48,754 nt of DNA, from positions 1 to 48,754 of the forward strand of contig DAOWAN010000003.1 in assembly GCA_030634545.1 (NCBI GenBank), read 5' to 3'. Shown piece by piece: positions 11,375-44,090 of this stretch. Under the pieces are notes generated by a model. That model did no database searches. It saw only the letters and a program-made list of their open reading frames with translations, and was not told the DNA's origin. The stretch is from Candidatus Nanohalarchaeota archaeon. GTDB taxonomy: Archaea > EX4484-52 > B79-G9. The translations under genes and the position numbers were made by a program. Every line of letters starts with the position of its first letter. Position 1 is the first letter of the stretch.

Positions 11375-11731
11375 ATATAGCCAAAGACATAACTCTCCAG
11401 ACCATATGTCTTTGTCATCTGATTAACAATCTTCGAGATTTATCATTTTGAAAATTGGTACCCAATTTCCAATTTTCGAAATCACTAAAAATCCACTTCA
11501 CATAGTGGATTTTTGTGATAACAAAAATCGAGTCTCTCGATTTTTAGTTATTTGAAATGGGTGACCATTTCGAAAATCCAGCAAATCCCGGATTTGCCCG
11601 GATCCTAAAAATCACGATGTGATTTTTAAGGACACATAAATCGCGGGATGTGATTAAGTATGTTTATATTTGTCAATCCGGTAACGGCGTGAAATATAGA
11701 AATATACCTCAGCTTAACTCACGCCAGTTAT
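11375..11731 (+). repeat. Hairpin-array element A (long form)
   Basis: This intergenic block is almost entirely consecutive palindromes. The left hairpin is AAAGACATA/TATGTCTTT (11383-11413). Next come AATCT-TCG-AGATT, a long stem ending in TTTCGAAA, AAAAATCCACT/AGTGGATTTTT, AAAAATCGAG/CTCGATTTTT, AAATGG-GTGA-CCATTT, then ATCC..CAAATC/GATTTG..GGAT and AAAAATCAC/GTGATTTTT. The right hairpin is GGCGTGA/TCACGCC (11686-11725). It shares borders and modules with elements B, C and D. It ends at the stop codon of the winged-helix gene. Confidence 0.85.
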
Positions 11732-27636: not shown

Positions 27637-28187
27637 AATATCACTTAGACTATATTAACATATATAATTTTAAAGTGTTTTAGATAAATACAGGGAATAA
27701 CGGGCACATAGAATGCATATTTCTCTTAACCGAACACGTATGCAGTGAAAATACACTTATAGTAAAAGCCATAACTATTTTGACTGAATGGCTTTTCTAT
27801 ATGCTTAAAATTGCGATGCAATTTTAGCATCCAACAAATCAATGTGATTTGTTCGGATCATTAAAAATCGTTTTACGATGTTTATGATTGCGGAATTGCG
27901 ACCCAATTCCTAATTTCGCAATAAGCAATTCAGTATGAATTGCGAAATTTTGAAAATTTGTACCAAATTTCCAATTTTCGAAATTTGAAATGGGTGACCA
28001 TTTCGAAAATCCAGGAAATCTTTGATTTCCCCGGATAGATTGACGCCTCTAGGTTTTTTCTAGAGTTTGTCCATTTTTTATCGTATATGAAAATAAAAAA
28101 GCTTGGAATTCTCCAATTGTACATATCTTCCATGATTTAGTAACGGCGTCAACTATACATTAATATTTATGCGCATAATTAGTTCCT
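27637..28187. other. Candidate replication origin (strand-composition switch)
   Basis: The + strand is C-rich left of this spacer (8 G/22 C in 26941-27000; 5 G/27 C in 15421-15480) and G-rich right of it (23 G/9 C in 29041-29100), independent of gene direction. The spacer is A/T-rich with many palindromes (element B) and lies directly before DP1, a replication gene found near origins in Pyrococcus. No cdc6/orc1 gene or origin box was seen, so this stays a hypothesis. Confidence 0.35.
27757..28157 (+). repeat. Hairpin-array element B (longest form)
   Basis: The left hairpin AAAAGCCAT/ATGGCTTTT (27764-27796) is followed by AAAATTGC-GAT-GCAATTTT, ATCC..AACAAATCA/TGATTTGTT..GGAT, AAAAATCG/CGATGTTTATG, ATTGCG/CGCAAT, GCAATTC/GAATTGC, a long AAATTT stem, AAATGG-GTGA-CCATTT and ATCC..GGAAATC/GATTTCC..GGAT. 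The right end is closed by TTGACGCC (28040-28047) with GGCGTCAA (28145-28152), enclosing CTCTAG/CTAGAG. TATAGT and ACTATA mark the ends. It sits between the rhomboid gene and DP1. Confidence 0.88.
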
Positions 28188-31011: not shown

Positions 31012-31170
31012 TTATAGTCAAGGCACTAATAAATTGAGTACGGTGCCTTGCCATATCATTAAAATTGCTCTGCAATTTTAGGATCCGGAAAATCAAAGAT
31101 TTTCCAGGATAGACGAAGGCATATTGGTTTTTTTGTGATGTTTGCTCATTTATTTCATGCCTTCACTATA
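31012..31170 (+). repeat. Hairpin-array element C (short form)
   Basis: It opens with TATAGT, then hairpins CAAGGCAC/GTGCCTTG (31019-31050), AAAATTGC-TCT-GCAATTTT and ATCC..GGAAAATC/GATTTTCC..GGAT. It closes with GAAGGCAT (31115-31122) paired to ATGCCTTC (31157-31164), then ACTATA. The closing stem differs from those of B and D on both sides, so pairing is conserved rather than sequence. It lies upstream of the MFS gene. Confidence 0.88.
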
Positions 31171-37271: not shown

Positions 37272-37379
37272 TCATACGTTACATTTATGGCGAGAATTTA
37301 TGTTTTTTCTTAGGGTTTTTGTTAGGGCGTCAAGCAGTCTGCGCTCTGTCAATTGGGTCTTTTGGTTGTCTTTGAATGT
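37272..37379 (-). pseudogene. Duplicated 3' end of the radical SAM gene
   Basis: Read on the minus strand this fragment gives TFKDNQKTQLTERRLLDALT, then KTLRKNIN. It matches the C-terminus of the radical SAM protein at 42496 (DFKDNPKSPLTERRLLDALI, then KTLRKNTN). It begins 2 nt after the subtilase stop codon and has no start codon. The bases 37295-37375 form a direct repeat of about 80 bp with 42497-42578. It is a duplicated gene end, as left by integration or a tandem duplication. Confidence 0.85.
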
Positions 37380-37380
37380 G

Positions 37381-40300
37381 TTAGTGTTTTTTGTTTTTCG
37401 GGACATGCTTTTTATATTTTATTGGTTCTGCGCGGTTCTTTTTCATGAAGATTGCCCTTAAAAATATGCCTACAATTATGGCTATCAACACAATCATGAT
37501 GCTGTCTAAACCAGGGGCGTATTTTGATATTGTCGAGGCTGCAAGTCCTGTCGGTCCCATGTCTTCCTGCGCAGTACGGTCTGATGAGGTTAGCACTCTC
37601 TTTTCTTCATCTTCTTTTGTGTCGGGGATGTCATGTGCGGATATGTATTTTGGGGTTTTTGGTTCTATTTCACATGTTTGGGATTCTGCTGATTTGTTTT
37701 CTTCTGTGGCGCAAACATTGCGGTCTGTACAGGTTCGGGTCTGCCTGTTGTTTTCGCATGAGGACCATTCTGTACATGTCCAATCTTCTGTGCAGGCTGC
37801 GCTTTGTATTATTGCTGGAGCGGGGGTCCTGCTGCTTGTGCTGCTGCCGATGTTGTTGTTATCTTCTTCGGGCGGGTCCTCGCCTTGGATGCTTGCGAAT
37901 GAACCGTAATGGCTGAAGTGTGTAACATTTGCCCATACATAGTTGTCTATTACATTTACTCCGGTGTTTTCACATGCTGTCCATTCATTTAGGGTTTCGT
38001 TCAGATAGTACATCTTTAGTGTGTTTTCGTCTATCCCGGCAGCGCTTAGTTCGCTGTCATTGTAGTGCATCTTTATCATTGCCCAGTTCATATTGCCTTC
38101 AAGGTCGTCATTTACTTCTATCTGGATGAATCTATTCCAATCTGTCATTCCTGAAGGGGTTGTGTTACCGGGGTTGTTTAAGTGTTCTATCAGGTTTACT
38201 GAGGCGTTTGTTGAATCTCCTACTTTTATCTGTAAGGTCAGTTCACCTTCAGTTATGTTAATGGAACTGTCTTTTGGTATATTTACGTTTACTAAAGCCA
38301 CGTTGAATTGCTTTGATGCTTCTGCGGTCCAATTTTTACCAGAATAGTCTGTATAATTGTAGAGCAGGGTGAGGATGTAATCACCGGGTTTCAATATATT
38401 TGCTCTCCAGTTTTGAGCAAGATCAATGCTTTCACCACCGGAGATATGAACATTCTCTATCTTTGATATTATCGTTGTATGGTTCTCATATGCTACCTGC
38501 CAGAATACTGTGCCGGTGGTCTGTTTATACAGATACTCTTCAGTGTTCGTCAATTGCGCTTTTGCAATAACTTCTTCTGTCGGGCTATATTCCTGTTTAT
38601 CAATATCAAGTGAGATGTCAACCATAGGCTTTACAAGAGATATCATAAGCGGGATAGTGTCTGACCAGGAACCTTCTAATACCTCATGATTTTCACCACT
38701 ATACCAATCACCTGTCAAATACAGAGTAGCAGAATAGGTTTCTGATGTTGCGTTATCCGGCAGTCTTATACTTAGTGATATGTTTTCTGTATCTGTGAAA
38801 TAATCGGTTGGTCTATTGATTACAGAAATCCAGTCACATTCTGCTTCACTCACTACCCAGATGTTCAGATCAAAAGGATATTCCTCATAATACAGACCTT
38901 CGCCTACCAGCACGATTGTCCATAGTCCTGATTCATAATTCTCTGTCAAATAGAGGTATCCGGAAATATCACTGCCATAAGTATTCATTGATTGTTCAAC
39001 CAATGTTCCATTCCCATCGAAAATATATAATTCGAAAGTATTCAAATAGGCAAGAGAATCCAGATGCGCCTCAAACTTTAGATGTTCATCATTATTCAAT
39101 TGCTCCTGTGTTATGTTGAAATTATAGTAGCGGTATGAATTACTGAACGGTCCTAAGGTATTGTTTTTATCAATATCGGAGGCAGGGACAATGTCCAGAG
39201 GAGTTTCAACCCAGACATTGCTTTCAGTGGAGTTTAGAAGAAAATCTGAATCCAGGAAATTTGTCAGGTTTATGGTCACGTTGGTGGTTTCGTTTGGCTC
39301 TAAAGTAATCCTGGAGCTTTTTAGATTGGCAGTCATGCCAGGATACCAAATCTCACCTGAAAATTGAAGACCTGCATCATCTTCCAGGTATAAGTTCTCT
39401 GACTCAATAACCACTGTCCAATTGCCTTCTAAAGGTTCGCGTAGGTATGAGTTCTCTATACTACCTTCAAGATCTGATGCATCATATTCTTTTCCTGCCG
39501 GGTCATATACGAATAGTCTCAAGTCATTATAACTTCCGGGAGCGTAATCTCTTATCCAAAGAGATATCTTCAGATAAGGTATTTGGGGCAGCACTTCAAA
39601 GGAAAATGCTCTTCTTTCATTTGAACTACAGAAATATCCGTCAAATGATGCTATTCTGTTAGTGTATCCCATAGATGAACCAGAACCTCCAGAGGAAGGC
39701 GGTTGTGCATAATTACCCGTACCACAAATATTACTTCCAAAATACTCATGTGTCGCATATGATTTAAATTCTATTGGTTCTGAAACTATGATCGATGCAG
39801 GAATCATAACATCTTCATCAATTGAATTTAGTTTTATCTTTCCTGCATATAATCCGGATATATCTGCATCAGGTATTATTGTAAGTCCGTTTTCTGAATA
39901 ATTGAACCAGTCCCACGTTTCAGGTTTATATGTTTTCAAAGTGATTGTAACATTTACTTCTCCGGAAACACTATATGGGTAAACATACAGGCGCCAAAGA
40001 CCATCTTTGGGCTTGTAGACAAATATGCTTTCTGAGTCAATTATGCCATAAGACCCGGAATAGTGCATATTCACTGGATCATATAGAGTCATGTCAATAT
40101 CATTGGAACTATTGTTCCAATTTATGGAGATATTAAATGAGTAGGCATCGTCAGGCATATAAAAGGTGTAATTAAATCCGATTGTAGAATTTACTGTATC
40201 GTAATCTGTTATCAGATCTATGATTTGCGTACCATCTTTAATGGCAGATAAAGCAGGATCAGTTAATGTCGTATTTAGAGTGATTGTTGTCTGCCTGCCA

Positions 40301-42324
40301 TTTTGAATGATAAGATTTAACAGGGACGGTGTCGCAAGAATTTTTGACTCCTCTGCTAATTCATGAGCATCTGAAACATTGATTAAACCTGCTCCCTGAA
40401 CAAATACTCTTTCACCAAAATCTTCGGCTGTATTCATTAAAATCTCTTTTATCTCATCCGGAGTCAGGTCGGAATCTGTCTGTTTCAATAGTGCTACTGC
40501 GCCTGCGACGTGCGGGGCGGCCATACTTGTGCCGCTAGCAGAGGTATAATGCGGAGTGTATAAAATACCCATATCAGTGCTACCTGACCTTGCTGAAATT
40601 ATTGAAACACCGGGGGCAACTAATTCCGGTTTTATTCTGCCGTCTGATGTGGGACCGATACTGCTGAAAGATGCAATCTGTCCTGATTGCGCATATTTGT
40701 ATGAAGCACCAACAGTAATCACTTTTTTTGCACAGCCGGGAGTAAGGATTGTTTCATTACCCCACCAGCCATAATTTCCTGCTGCTATAACTACCACTGT
40801 ACCCATATCCCATGCTTTTTCTGCTGCCTGCGCCAAAGGATCATTTCCATCACAAATGTTTTGCCCACCACCTAAACTCATAGAGATCACATCTGCTCCA
40901 CTTAGTACAGCCCATTCTATGCCCGCTATTATCCCTGAATCATATCCATAGCCATCATCACTTAGGATCTTGCCATTCAATAGCTGAGCGCCGGGCGCTA
41001 CACCTTTAAAAATATCCGGCTGATAATCCAAATTGATATCCAATCCTATTGTCAGATTATTGTCTTCTGAATCGATTTGAGAGACAAGATATTCTGTAGA
41101 ACCCCAAGAACCATAACATACCCCCCAATAATCACATACAGAATAATATTTTTTAAAATGCTCATTCTCAAATGCTTTCATCTGGTCGAGCATTGTGTTG
41201 AAGTCCCCGTCTTCATCAAGATAAATTAAACTGTAATCGGAGGTGATTTCTACGAAACCATTTATGCCTGTGCTGAAATTAAATGTAACATTACCCCAAT
41301 CTTGTGTCCCTGTGCCAGTTATCCATGATTTCCCACCATCAATACTGAAATCGTAAATATGTGTCTCATTTCTATTAATGTCCAATGTATAATTCTCATT
41401 TTCCTGGACCATCAATACATAATCATCTGTATCGTATCCCCACCAACCGGATGGGATGTCATAATTAGATACCTTAGAATCAGGGGTTATCTTAAATATC
41501 CATTTTGTGAGAAGTACATTATACATATCAACTAATTCGACTATTCCTACATGCGGTGTCTGTTCCGGATTCGGTATGTTTGTCAAACCGCTTGTATCTG
41601 TAGAGATTGTGTCTACAAAGATTGTGGAGCCAGCACCGCTCCCGGCAATTATGCCTGCGCAGTGTGTTCCGTGCCCGTAGCCATCTGATGCGTCTAATCT
41701 GTTATCGAATAAAGTGAAATCTCTTTCTAAAATAATCTTATCTTTCAGTCCGGGATGATCTTTGTCGATTCCTGTGTCTAAAACCGCTATCTTTACCCCT
41801 GTACCATCAATGCCATTGTCCCAGACAAATGGTGCGCCAATCGCTTTTGTGCTTTCACTGAGAAGAGGAGTGAATTTTCCTTTTTCTCTCAATTCCTGCA
41901 TTTCCTGTTCAAAGCCTTCATCCGGTTTTGGTATCTGTACTTTTTTGTCTAAATAGATTCCTTTAATGTTGGTATCTGAAGCTATGTTTTGGATGTTTTC
42001 GTGAGGGATGTCCAGGGCGATTGCGCCTATCAGTTCATAGATGTATTTTATCTTTGCATTATTCTGGTTTAAAAAATTGATGACTTCGTCCTTGTGTTTG
42101 ATGTCAGTTAAAGTAACTATCACCGGTACGTCTATTGGTGTCGGTTGACTCAATTGAGTATTTAGGGTGGATACTGCGGTCTGCGGTTGTTGTGATGTTT
42201 TTTCAGATATTTCCTGTAAATGTTCTACAAGAGCAGGGCCAATTATTGTTGGCTCTGAGTGTACTGAATTTGCGAGAAGCATTAAAAAGAACACACATGA
42301 CCAGATTAGAGTTAACTTTTTCAT
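37381..42324 (-). CDS. Giant cell-surface subtilase (S8 family) with C-terminal anchor
   Basis: The 1647-residue protein starts with a signal peptide (1-23) and an I9-type prodomain (65-130). The catalytic triad is Asp183 (VLDTG), His221 (GHGTHCAG) and Ser600 (SGTSMAAPH), with Asn517 in AAGN for the oxyanion hole. About 210 extra residues (230-440) split His from GVAPGA. Then come repeated beta-sandwich and pre-peptidase-like domains, a Cys-rich thrombospondin-like segment (CTEDWTCTEWSSC), and a final span with a basic tail. It should digest proteins at the cell surface. Flanking gene-end repeats suggest it arrived as a unit. Confidence 0.93.
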   Translation of the reverse strand: MKKLTLIWSCVFFLMLLANSVHSEPTIIGPALVEHLQEISEKTSQQPQTAVSTLNTQLSQPTPIDVPVIVTLTDIKHKDEVINFLNQNNAKIKYIYELIGAIALDIPHENIQNIASDTNIKGIYLDKKVQIPKPDEGFEQEMQELREKGKFTPLLSESTKAIGAPFVWDNGIDGTGVKIAVLDTGIDKDHPGLKDKIILERDFTLFDNRLDASDGYGHGTHCAGIIAGSGAGSTIFVDTISTDTSGLTNIPNPEQTPHVGIVELVDMYNVLLTKWIFKITPDSKVSNYDIPSGWWGYDTDDYVLMVQENENYTLDINRNETHIYDFSIDGGKSWITGTGTQDWGNVTFNFSTGINGFVEITSDYSLIYLDEDGDFNTMLDQMKAFENEHFKKYYSVCDYWGVCYGSWGSTEYLVSQIDSEDNNLTIGLDINLDYQPDIFKGVAPGAQLLNGKILSDDGYGYDSGIIAGIEWAVLSGADVISMSLGGGQNICDGNDPLAQAAEKAWDMGTVVVIAAGNYGWWGNETILTPGCAKKVITVGASYKYAQSGQIASFSSIGPTSDGRIKPELVAPGVSIISARSGSTDMGILYTPHYTSASGTSMAAPHVAGAVALLKQTDSDLTPDEIKEILMNTAEDFGERVFVQGAGLINVSDAHELAEESKILATPSLLNLIIQNGRQTTITLNTTLTDPALSAIKDGTQIIDLITDYDTVNSTIGFNYTFYMPDDAYSFNISINWNNSSNDIDMTLYDPVNMHYSGSYGIIDSESIFVYKPKDGLWRLYVYPYSVSGEVNVTITLKTYKPETWDWFNYSENGLTIIPDADISGLYAGKIKLNSIDEDVMIPASIIVSEPIEFKSYATHEYFGSNICGTGNYAQPPSSGGSGSSMGYTNRIASFDGYFCSSNERRAFSFEVLPQIPYLKISLWIRDYAPGSYNDLRLFVYDPAGKEYDASDLEGSIENSYLREPLEGNWTVVIESENLYLEDDAGLQFSGEIWYPGMTANLKSSRITLEPNETTNVTINLTNFLDSDFLLNSTESNVWVETPLDIVPASDIDKNNTLGPFSNSYRYYNFNITQEQLNNDEHLKFEAHLDSLAYLNTFELYIFDGNGTLVEQSMNTYGSDISGYLYLTENYESGLWTIVLVGEGLYYEEYPFDLNIWVVSEAECDWISVINRPTDYFTDTENISLSIRLPDNATSETYSATLYLTGDWYSGENHEVLEGSWSDTIPLMISLVKPMVDISLDIDKQEYSPTEEVIAKAQLTNTEEYLYKQTTGTVFWQVAYENHTTIISKIENVHISGGESIDLAQNWRANILKPGDYILTLLYNYTDYSGKNWTAEASKQFNVALVNVNIPKDSSINITEGELTLQIKVGDSTNASVNLIEHLNNPGNTTPSGMTDWNRFIQIEVNDDLEGNMNWAMIKMHYNDSELSAAGIDENTLKMYYLNETLNEWTACENTGVNVIDNYVWANVTHFSHYGSFASIQGEDPPEEDNNNIGSSTSSRTPAPAIIQSAACTEDWTCTEWSSCENNRQTRTCTDRNVCATEENKSAESQTCEIEPKTPKYISAHDIPDTKEDEEKRVLTSSDRTAQEDMGPTGLAASTISKYAPGLDSIMIVLIAIIVGIFLRAIFMKKNRAEPIKYKKHVPKNKKH

Positions 42325-42495: not shown

Positions 42496-43818
42496 TTAAT
42501 TTGTGTTTTTTCTTAGGGTTTTTATTAGGGCGTCAAGTAATCTGCGCTCGGTGAGTGGGGATTTTGGGTTGTCTTTGAAGTCTTTGTATGTGTTTTTGTC
42601 CAGACAGGAGATGAGAGGGAGGTTTTGTTTTTTGCATGCGTTTTTTAGGGCAGTGTAGCTTTCTGAATCGGGTTTGAAGTATGCGAAGAGCTTTTCGTAT
42701 CTGTGGGATTTCAGGTAGTTTTCGATTCTATCTTGTGTTGTTTTTAGGTATTGTTTTTTTATCTCGGGGGTCTCTTCCCATTCGGGCCAGTCGTAGTGGG
42801 CGAAGGGGTATTTGGTCTCGAATTCGCGGGGGATTATGCCTGGATTTGAGATCATGAGATGGTGGAGGTTTGCGTAGGCGGACAGGGATTTTAGGCGCCT
42901 CGTGATTTCTTTGTGAGTTTTTGAGTATGAGTAGGGTTTGCGGTATGCGCAGGGGAGGAAGAGAGCGTATTTTTTTATTTCGGGTTTTTCGTAGAAGCGC
43001 ACTATGTAGTCCTGCCAGAGGTCGTAGATTGGGTTTTCAAGGTTTTCTTTTGTCGCGCCGATCAGAGGGGTCTGGTCTTTGAAGCGTGGGTATGAGATGT
43101 AGTCGTCATAGTAGATGTCGATTTTTTTGTCTGCGCGGTGCTTTTTTACGAGGGTGTTGAATTCGCTTTTGTTTAGTGGGCGCCATGTTTTTTTCAGCCA
43201 TAGATTGAAGAGTGGGGCGTAGCCGTATGGGTAGGTGTTTATGATTGCGATTGTGTCTGAGTGTTTTTGCGCGAATTCTACGGAGTCGTCGAGGGAGCTT
43301 TGGATGTCTTTTGTGTATGGGAGGTTTGCCATGAGGTATGTCCGTATGTAGAAGCCTTGTTTTTTCAGGAGGGATGCGGCGTTTTGGTAGTCTTTTGTTG
43401 TGAAGCCTTTGCAGATTTTTTTTAGTATGCTGTTGTCGGATGTTTCGAGTCCGAGTGCGAAGTATATTTTTAGTCTGTTGTTTTTGTTTGCGTCTTTTAG
43501 GATTTTTAGGTTTTGGGGGGTTATGTGGTCCGGGCGGCTTTCGATTATTAGTTGTTTTATGTCTAAGTCGATGCATTTTTGGATGAGGTATTTTTGGAAG
43601 TCTTCAGGGATTTGGTTTTTGTCCAGGAATGAGCCGGAGTTCAGGTATTTTAGGGTGTGGTAGGTTTTGGTCAGTCTTGCGTCCAGCTGGTGCTTTAGGC
43701 GGTTGAAGTCAGGCTCTGGGAGGTCGGGTTTTTTGCTGAAGCTGCAGAAGATACAGCGCGCCCATGAGCAGCGACCTGATTCGGTTATGATGGTCAGTTC
43801 TGTTTTGTCTGTCGGCAT
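42496..43818 (-). CDS. Radical SAM protein of unknown substrate
   Basis: The protein (440 aa from ATG 43818) opens with GRCSWARCIFCSFSKKP. Cys17, Cys22 and Cys25 form a C-x4-C-x2-C site, a variant of the usual C-x3-C-x2-C that binds the 4Fe-4S cluster. Downstream, LIIESRPDHI, FALGLETSD and RTYLMANLPYT fit the Elp3/HemN-type barrel. The frame extends to 43995, but the extension is not protein-like and contains the palindromic operator. Its C-terminal end is duplicated beyond the subtilase. The substrate cannot be named. Confidence 0.82.
   Translation of the reverse strand: MPTDKTELTIITESGRCSWARCIFCSFSKKPDLPEPDFNRLKHQLDARLTKTYHTLKYLNSGSFLDKNQIPEDFQKYLIQKCIDLDIKQLIIESRPDHITPQNLKILKDANKNNRLKIYFALGLETSDNSILKKICKGFTTKDYQNAASLLKKQGFYIRTYLMANLPYTKDIQSSLDDSVEFAQKHSDTIAIINTYPYGYAPLFNLWLKKTWRPLNKSEFNTLVKKHRADKKIDIYYDDYISYPRFKDQTPLIGATKENLENPIYDLWQDYIVRFYEKPEIKKYALFLPCAYRKPYSYSKTHKEITRRLKSLSAYANLHHLMISNPGIIPREFETKYPFAHYDWPEWEETPEIKKQYLKTTQDRIENYLKSHRYEKLFAYFKPDSESYTALKNACKKQNLPLISCLDKNTYKDFKDNPKSPLTERRLLDALIKTLRKNTN
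42497..42578 (+). repeat. Direct repeat flanking the subtilase gene (second copy)
   Basis: This stretch, the 3' end of the intact radical SAM gene, is repeated at 37295-37375 on the other side of the subtilase gene, in the same orientation. About 80 bp match with a few changes: GCGTCAAGTAATCTGCGCTC against GCGTCAAGCAGTCTGCGCTC. The arrangement resembles att sites or duplication joints. Confidence 0.75.
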
Positions 43819-43931: not shown

Positions 43932-44090
43932 TTATAGTAAAAGCCATAACTATTTGGACTGATGGCTTTTCCATATCCTTAAAATTGCTATGCAATTTTA
44001 GGATCCAGGAAATCTTCGATTTCCCCGGATAGATTAACGCCTATTGTTTTATTGGTTCTATTTGTCCAGTTATTATCGGCGTTAACTATG
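43932..44090 (+). repeat. Hairpin-array element D (short form)
   Basis: After TATAGT it has AAAAGCCA/TGGCTTTT (43939-43970) enclosing TTTGGACTGA, then AAAATTGC-TAT-GCAATTTT and ATCC..GGAAATC-TTC-GATTTCC..GGAT. TTAACGCC (44034-44041) pairs with GGCGTTAA (44078-44085), then CTAT. GTCCA at 44062-44066 could pair with TGGAC in the left loop. It matches B closely apart from the missing middle hairpins. Confidence 0.88.

Follow-up and report, generated by a model that had tools for sequence, protein, structure and literature searches.

Are the four intergenic hairpin arrays in the window (the whole 48,754-nucleotide stretch of Candidatus Nanohalarchaeota DNA analysed here) mobile elements, and if so, what moves them? 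DPANN archaea are regarded as having small, streamlined genomes. Nanohalarchaeota MAGs nonetheless carry dozens of small mobile-element copies, about 90 of them in the genome from which the window comes. The four repeats are members of a family, not described before, of very small mobile DNA elements that number several hundred. The reading we prefer, with a probability of about 0.8, is that these are non-autonomous MITE-like elements mobilised in trans, the enzyme responsible not having been recovered by our searches. Their oriented target and missing transposase pose a concrete question about the mobiliser, and the family is a natural experiment on the building, perfect upkeep and shuffling of DNA hairpins. 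Copies at contig ends may also help to fragment assemblies.

Extent of the family

Four co-oriented intergenic copies had been described in a sequence-only reading of the window. All are present (Table 1), with the stems and modules quoted there, and direct reading places each between genes on the same strand. Pieces common to copies A-D were recovered by a direct-repeat search. Compared with dinucleotide shuffles, the elements fold well as single-stranded DNA (z = -11.7 for A, -9.2 for B and -6.0 for D), with no shuffle as good.

Table 1. Positions of the four elements in the window and of the parts of copy B
Feature	Position	Strand	Description
Copy A	11376-11698	+	Long, array-bearing element with decay at either end (TATAGC...AATATA); DNA fold z -11.7
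Copy B	27758-28157	+	400-bp element, focus of the study; orthologous site empty in G004 (L179)
Copy B, left-end hairpin	27758-27796	+	TATAGT + stem AAAAGCCAT (27764-27772) / ATGGCTTTT (27788-27796)
Copy B, match to covariance model R1	27758-27803		Left end; stem backed by covariation
Copy B, hairpin array	27797-28039	+	About 8 hairpins between the two end hairpins, AT/GGATCC borders; missing in 103-bp copies
Copy B, right-end hairpin	28040-28157	+	Stem TTGACGCC (28040-28047) / GGCGTCAA (28145-28152) + ACTATA
Copy C	31013-31170	+	158-bp element, subfamily 2; CAAGGCAC / GAAGGCAT stems, GAG/CTC loop pairing
Copy D	43933-44090	+	158-bp element, subfamily 1; precise empty site in G003:C27 (L203)

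The four copies first described are a small fraction of the family. The own genome (G000) is a 2.18-Mb assembly that, given an estimated contamination of 7.4%, may be a mixture of genomes; G001-G004 are same-genus MAGs (Ca. Nanohalarchaeota), and G052 is a complete, distant archaeal genome. All the MAGs are fragmented drafts. A DNA search of G000 returned 78 matching pieces. Covariance models of the left and right ends, a search that the earlier reading had proposed, found copies across this genome (at least 90 left and at least 93 right ends) and in related archaea. Left/right ends number at least 44/45, 29/34, 50/51 and 32/31 in the four same-genus MAGs, which amounts to at least 29-51 ends of a kind in each, at least 7/7 in G005 and at least 10/7 in G014. 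A signature search of named genomes matched almost only Ca. Nanohalarchaeota records, and the few other matches look like chance matches of one 18-base pattern.

G052 has three copies with recognisable left ends, bare hairpin pairs of about 95 bp (L078-L080). Some of these pairs stand in tandem, TATAGC..GCTATA ends directly abutting TATAGT ends, and all three have A at position +7 of the target motif given below. The elements match no Rfam family. Searches of viral contigs, phages and plasmids gave no match, and carriage by a virus or plasmid was rejected on this ground. In a genome of the same family (G008), L039 and L059 (about 1300-2000) are hairpin arrays with other borders and ends, which suggests that array-type elements are broader than the present family. 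The window also holds a 1647-codon ORF (37381-42324, reverse strand) with an 82-bp direct repeat, 87% identical, on both sides (37295-37376 and 42498-42579); a peptide-pattern scan of 84,980 genomes returned no relative of this ORF.

A two-hairpin core with optional modules

The 158 distinct insertions recovered range from 101 to 447 bp. The commonest form (72 of 158) is exactly 103 bp and lacks internal hairpins, which are present in 71. This core reads TATAGT - left hairpin - CCAT AT AGAT - right hairpin - ACTATA and consists of two abutting hairpins, TATAGT-L-CCATA and TATAGAT-R-ACTATA. In longer copies extra hairpins enter at the CCAT-AT-AGAT point, and the GGATCC borders seen earlier arise because every inserted module ends in AT. 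Other copies carry a two-hairpin extension within the left or right loop, as in the right-end hairpin loop of copy B; one left loop (L255, G000:C31, upstream of 14769) holds two such extensions in tandem, with differing stem sequences. Optional modules at the centre of the core and inside the end loops are common to the subfamilies. The module TAAAATTGC/GCAATTTTA is present in both, 24 and 12 times, and ends and modules therefore assort independently. The hairpin arrays by which the elements had been defined are thus real, but they are optional cargo.

The outer ends of the core are diverged terminal inverted repeats (TATAGT...ACTATA). Comparison of the left end with the reverse-complemented right end shows TATAGT in common (94-99% identity per position) together with loop positions, and the end loops are complementary (GGACAAA/TTTGTCC; GAG/CTC in subfamily 2). 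A single closed outer stem, pairing 5' TATAGT with 3' ACTATA, was rejected, as it has no two-sided changes and five rows of the core alignment contradict it. In those rows the right terminus changes from CTAT to GTAT and the internal ATAG to ATAC, so pair 47-103 compensates (G-C to C-G) in the same rows where the 5-103 pairing breaks. The internal ATAG therefore closes the right hairpin, and the core is made up of two hairpins in a row. The closing stems quoted in the earlier reading are present, but the terminal ACTATA pairs with this internal ATAG and not with the 5' TATAGT.

Insertion and the search for a mobiliser

The elements are mobile. The joined flanks of 29 elements were searched in six genomes, a match across the joint counting as an empty site. 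Together with the paralogue pair L067/L166 this gives about eleven independent empty sites (L051, L016, L023, L069, L014, L098, L029, L067 and copy D, with diverged sites for B and L092); L051 is empty in three genomes, L016 in two and L023 in four. Comparison of L067 with its paralogue L166 shows the flanks joined perfectly at one TA. At most empty sites a single TA stands in place of the filled TA-[TAGT...ACTA]-TA. TG is found instead in the empty sites of copy D, L029 and L098, and the filled site of copy D reads TA...TG. G002 (L177) and G004 (L179) lack copy C in the orthologous intergenic region, which is too diverged for the junction to be placed, and in a flank-to-flank DNA search around copy A the sequences were too diverged. 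Three pairs of 100%-identical copies each have different flanks. The suggestion of passively mobilised DNA is thus upheld by precise empty sites, by TA targets and by identical copies at different loci. The flanks of L166/L067 (AAAATATCCAA..CAGAAATTAGTTGGATTCCATAGTC) are themselves a second dispersed repeat of the own genome, at least about 85 bp long, one copy of which is the paralogous empty site.

Clean insertions are flanked by TA...TA in 131 of 147 cases. Read in element orientation, the target across these 147 insertions, which are not phylogenetically independent, is A(-3, 72%) W(-2) N T A R(+2) T(+3, 60%) N3 A(+7, 71%); at the mirrored positions the preference is much less marked (p=3.6e-10 for A at -3, p=1.9e-7 for A at +7). 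Twelve of 126 sites lie inside an ORF of at least 150 codons, compared with 419 of 600 random positions. Copies next to each other on a contig are co-oriented 35:11 among the matches listed (p=2.7e-4) and 20:7 in fully read contigs (p=0.0096). Neighbouring genes were rejected as the source of orientation, there being no bias relative to gene strand, as was GC skew, to which the link is weak (p=0.046; the sign agrees in 31 of 58 elements, 31:27). Three elements (L016, L088 and L090) are inserted about 10-30 bp from tRNA genes. The neighbours of L088 and L090 were confirmed as tRNA-His and tRNA-Gly; the tRNA-like sequence at L016 was not called, possibly through an intron.

We propose that an unlinked transposase would recognise both ends through the conserved TATAG and loop sequence, the stem sequence being free, and would join TAGT...ACTA into TA. 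It would probably duplicate the TA to give TA-element-TA, although copy D reads TA...TG, with TG in the empty site. Template switching between the arms, a requirement for folding, or both together would preserve perfect stems in the DNA itself, and hairpin modules may accumulate as neutral or self-serving cargo.

These modular MITE-like elements are in their working closest to RUP, Correia and BOX elements. Like MITEs they are short, non-coding and multi-copy, with terminal inverted repeats and precise empty sites; no autonomous partner with matching ends was found in the same genome. The earlier statement that no family of this design is known holds in that there is no Rfam, phage or plasmid match, but the working class, that of short non-autonomous elements flanked by TA and in part modular, is known (RUP, Correia/NEMIS, ERIC, BOX). 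Of the known kinds that the same reading had named as possible homes (an IS end, an Rfam family or a MITE), the last is largely borne out: the elements are a new family and a new variant within the MITE kind, and a member of none of RUP, Correia/ERIC, BOX or REPIN.

RUP of Streptococcus pneumoniae (107 bp, TA target) has ends like those of IS630-Spn1, of which it is the proposed client (PMC2229807). The archaeal elements resemble it in length (about 103-107 bp), TA target, high copy number, intergenic location, high degree of base pairing and lack of an ORF (PMC2229807). However, RUP ends match a resident IS630 while no matching transposase was found for the archaeal elements, RUP lacks hairpin-array cargo, and host phylum and sequence differ. 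BOX (boxA-(boxB)n-boxC, Streptococcus), compared by its published description, likewise has fixed ends and a variable number of internal modules (PMC3049150), in a size range of 67-637 bp against 101-447 bp here (PMC3049150); BOX repeats one module in tandem, whereas the archaeal elements combine many different hairpin modules with AT/GGATCC borders. Correia/NEMIS and ERIC have terminal inverted repeats, TA at the termini and probably target duplication in common with them (PMC2229807, Table 1), but form one long foldback rather than two separate hairpins with freely changing perfect stems.

The earlier remark that no transposase gene is adjacent proved correct: no recognisable transposase is linked to the elements, and a search for left and right ends separated by a gene, or standing unpaired around an ORF, found none. 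An apparent 1.7-kb left-right pair on C172, taken as a possible autonomous copy, is in fact a pair of distinct 103-bp copies. Right ends that seemed to lack a partner belong to copies whose left loop is extended.

The most likely single candidate for the mobiliser, at roughly even odds, is an IS630/Tc1-mariner-type enzyme. IS630-type elements L222 (G000; ends TATAGC...) and L229 (G013, same order; ends TATAGTC...) have TA on both flanks, and ends of this type fit TA-targeting Tc1/mariner/IS630 chemistry. Against background TATAG sites the G013 ends fall in the top 2.5-3.6% and the G000 ends in the top 6-25%; beyond TATAG the similarity to element ends is modest, and the inner end sequence of the G000 IS630 differs. 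G000 has only one DDE_3 (IS630) gene, and none was found in G001-G005, G010, G014 or the complete G052. It counts against such an enzyme that neither an oriented target nor co-oriented neighbours (35:11 among the matches listed) would be expected of a symmetric TIR/DDE reaction. Genes for IS4/IS5-type DDE (PF01609), scattered and absent from G001, G002, G010 and G014, were rejected as the mobiliser.

An unlikely alternative is REPIN- or IS200-like single-stranded DNA transposition, in which an HUH (Y1/RAYT-type) enzyme would act on hairpins at replication forks and insert them in one orientation without target duplication. REPINs are RAYT-mobilised inverted REP doublets, and their two inverted hairpins behind a conserved tetra- or pentanucleotide resemble the archaeal pair, each behind a conserved TATAG (PMC3116915); compensatory stem changes and extragenic location are further likenesses (PMC3116915). 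The oriented target, the co-oriented neighbours and the weak link with GC skew all favour this route, and the left TA is unchanged in (TA,TG) and (TA,CA) cases, as expected if it belongs to the element. Yet the skew sign agrees in little more than half of the elements, the tag is TATAG with the GTAG signature of REPs missing, and the TA target has a likely 2-bp duplication. Moreover, no RAYT/Y1 gene (Y1_Tnp) is present in seven of nine element-bearing genomes examined (G001, G002, G004, G005, G010, G014 and the complete G052). G003 has one partial Y1_Tnp match. Both Y1 copies of G000 are IS200-like elements of the ordinary kind, and an IS200/Y1 origin was rejected, as these copies have other ends and are missing from most hosts. 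They lie in L166 (G000:C145) and L161 (G000:C164), one with an in-frame stop, and are both close to conserved hairpins of the type CACCGCTCxCTTCGxTCGCTATAGACTGG, which have no relation to the hairpin-array family.

It is about as probable as the ssDNA/HUH route that the mobiliser is neither IS630-like nor ssDNA/HUH-like; if so, a new DNA-integrating enzyme awaits in these genomes. Rather unlikely, too, is a new archaeal mobile-DNA class in which the folded hairpins would be the substrate of an enzyme still to be found, acting in one orientation, coupled to replication, at the asymmetric target A-W-N-TA-R-T-N3-A, with this process also adding and exchanging modules at AT/TA borders.

Pairing of the stems

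Paired changes in the stems, reported from the window alone, hold in covariation tests. For a set of 15 short copies, 96.8% of the 714 cells are paired and two-sided changes occur in 21 of 48 pairs; pairing in slid controls does not exceed 42%. The 69 distinct cores of 103 bp have 94.8% of their cells paired and two-sided changes in 21 of 29 pairs; the 285 two-sided cells, which are not phylogenetically independent, compare with 86.7 +/- 6.4 in shuffles, and slid partners pair in 29-49%. Kinship of sequences inflates such counts, but the slid controls preserve relatedness. The refuting outcome named in the earlier reading, covariation without support beyond phylogeny, did not arise. That the pairing is under selection, as had been claimed, does not follow of necessity: template switching in replication makes paired changes in one step (PMC8794818), and homogenisation of the arms in this way gives the same two-sided changes. 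Arm-to-arm template switching in replication and selection for a perfect DNA hairpin both remain as explanations of the perfect stems, and are not mutually exclusive.

RNA stems usually drift via G-U pairs. The 16 stem pairs of the elements (1104 cells, again not phylogenetically independent) comprise 1052 Watson-Crick pairs, 6 G-T, 22 A-C and 24 other mismatches, whereas eleven tRNAs from the same loci have G-U in 19 of 239 pairs (Fisher p=2e-10). The share is therefore 0.5% against 8%, about 15-fold rarer, and G-U is no commoner than A-C. Stems and closures together have 252 two-sided but only 8 one-sided G-U changes. Two-sided changes almost without G-U intermediates therefore point to the stems acting as DNA, not RNA. 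The idea that the repeats are RNAs fares badly for this reason, and a transcribed structured RNA, or RNA-based mobile element, with fold and loop-loop pairing under selection is very improbable. The very strong covariation would suit it and the complementary end loops would allow a kissing interaction, but the loops are complementary because the ends are inverted repeats, Rfam holds no matching family, and orientation is unbiased relative to gene strand.

A still slighter chance attaches to unselected hairpin expansion, with template switching making and homogenising palindromes and the elements spreading only as hitch-hikers: it leaves the defined ends, TA targets, precise empty sites and identical dispersed copies unexplained and is an addition to mobility, no substitute for it, although two-sided changes without intermediates are the signature expected of template switching (PMC8794818) and the two-hairpin unit is tandemly duplicated in the left loop of L255.
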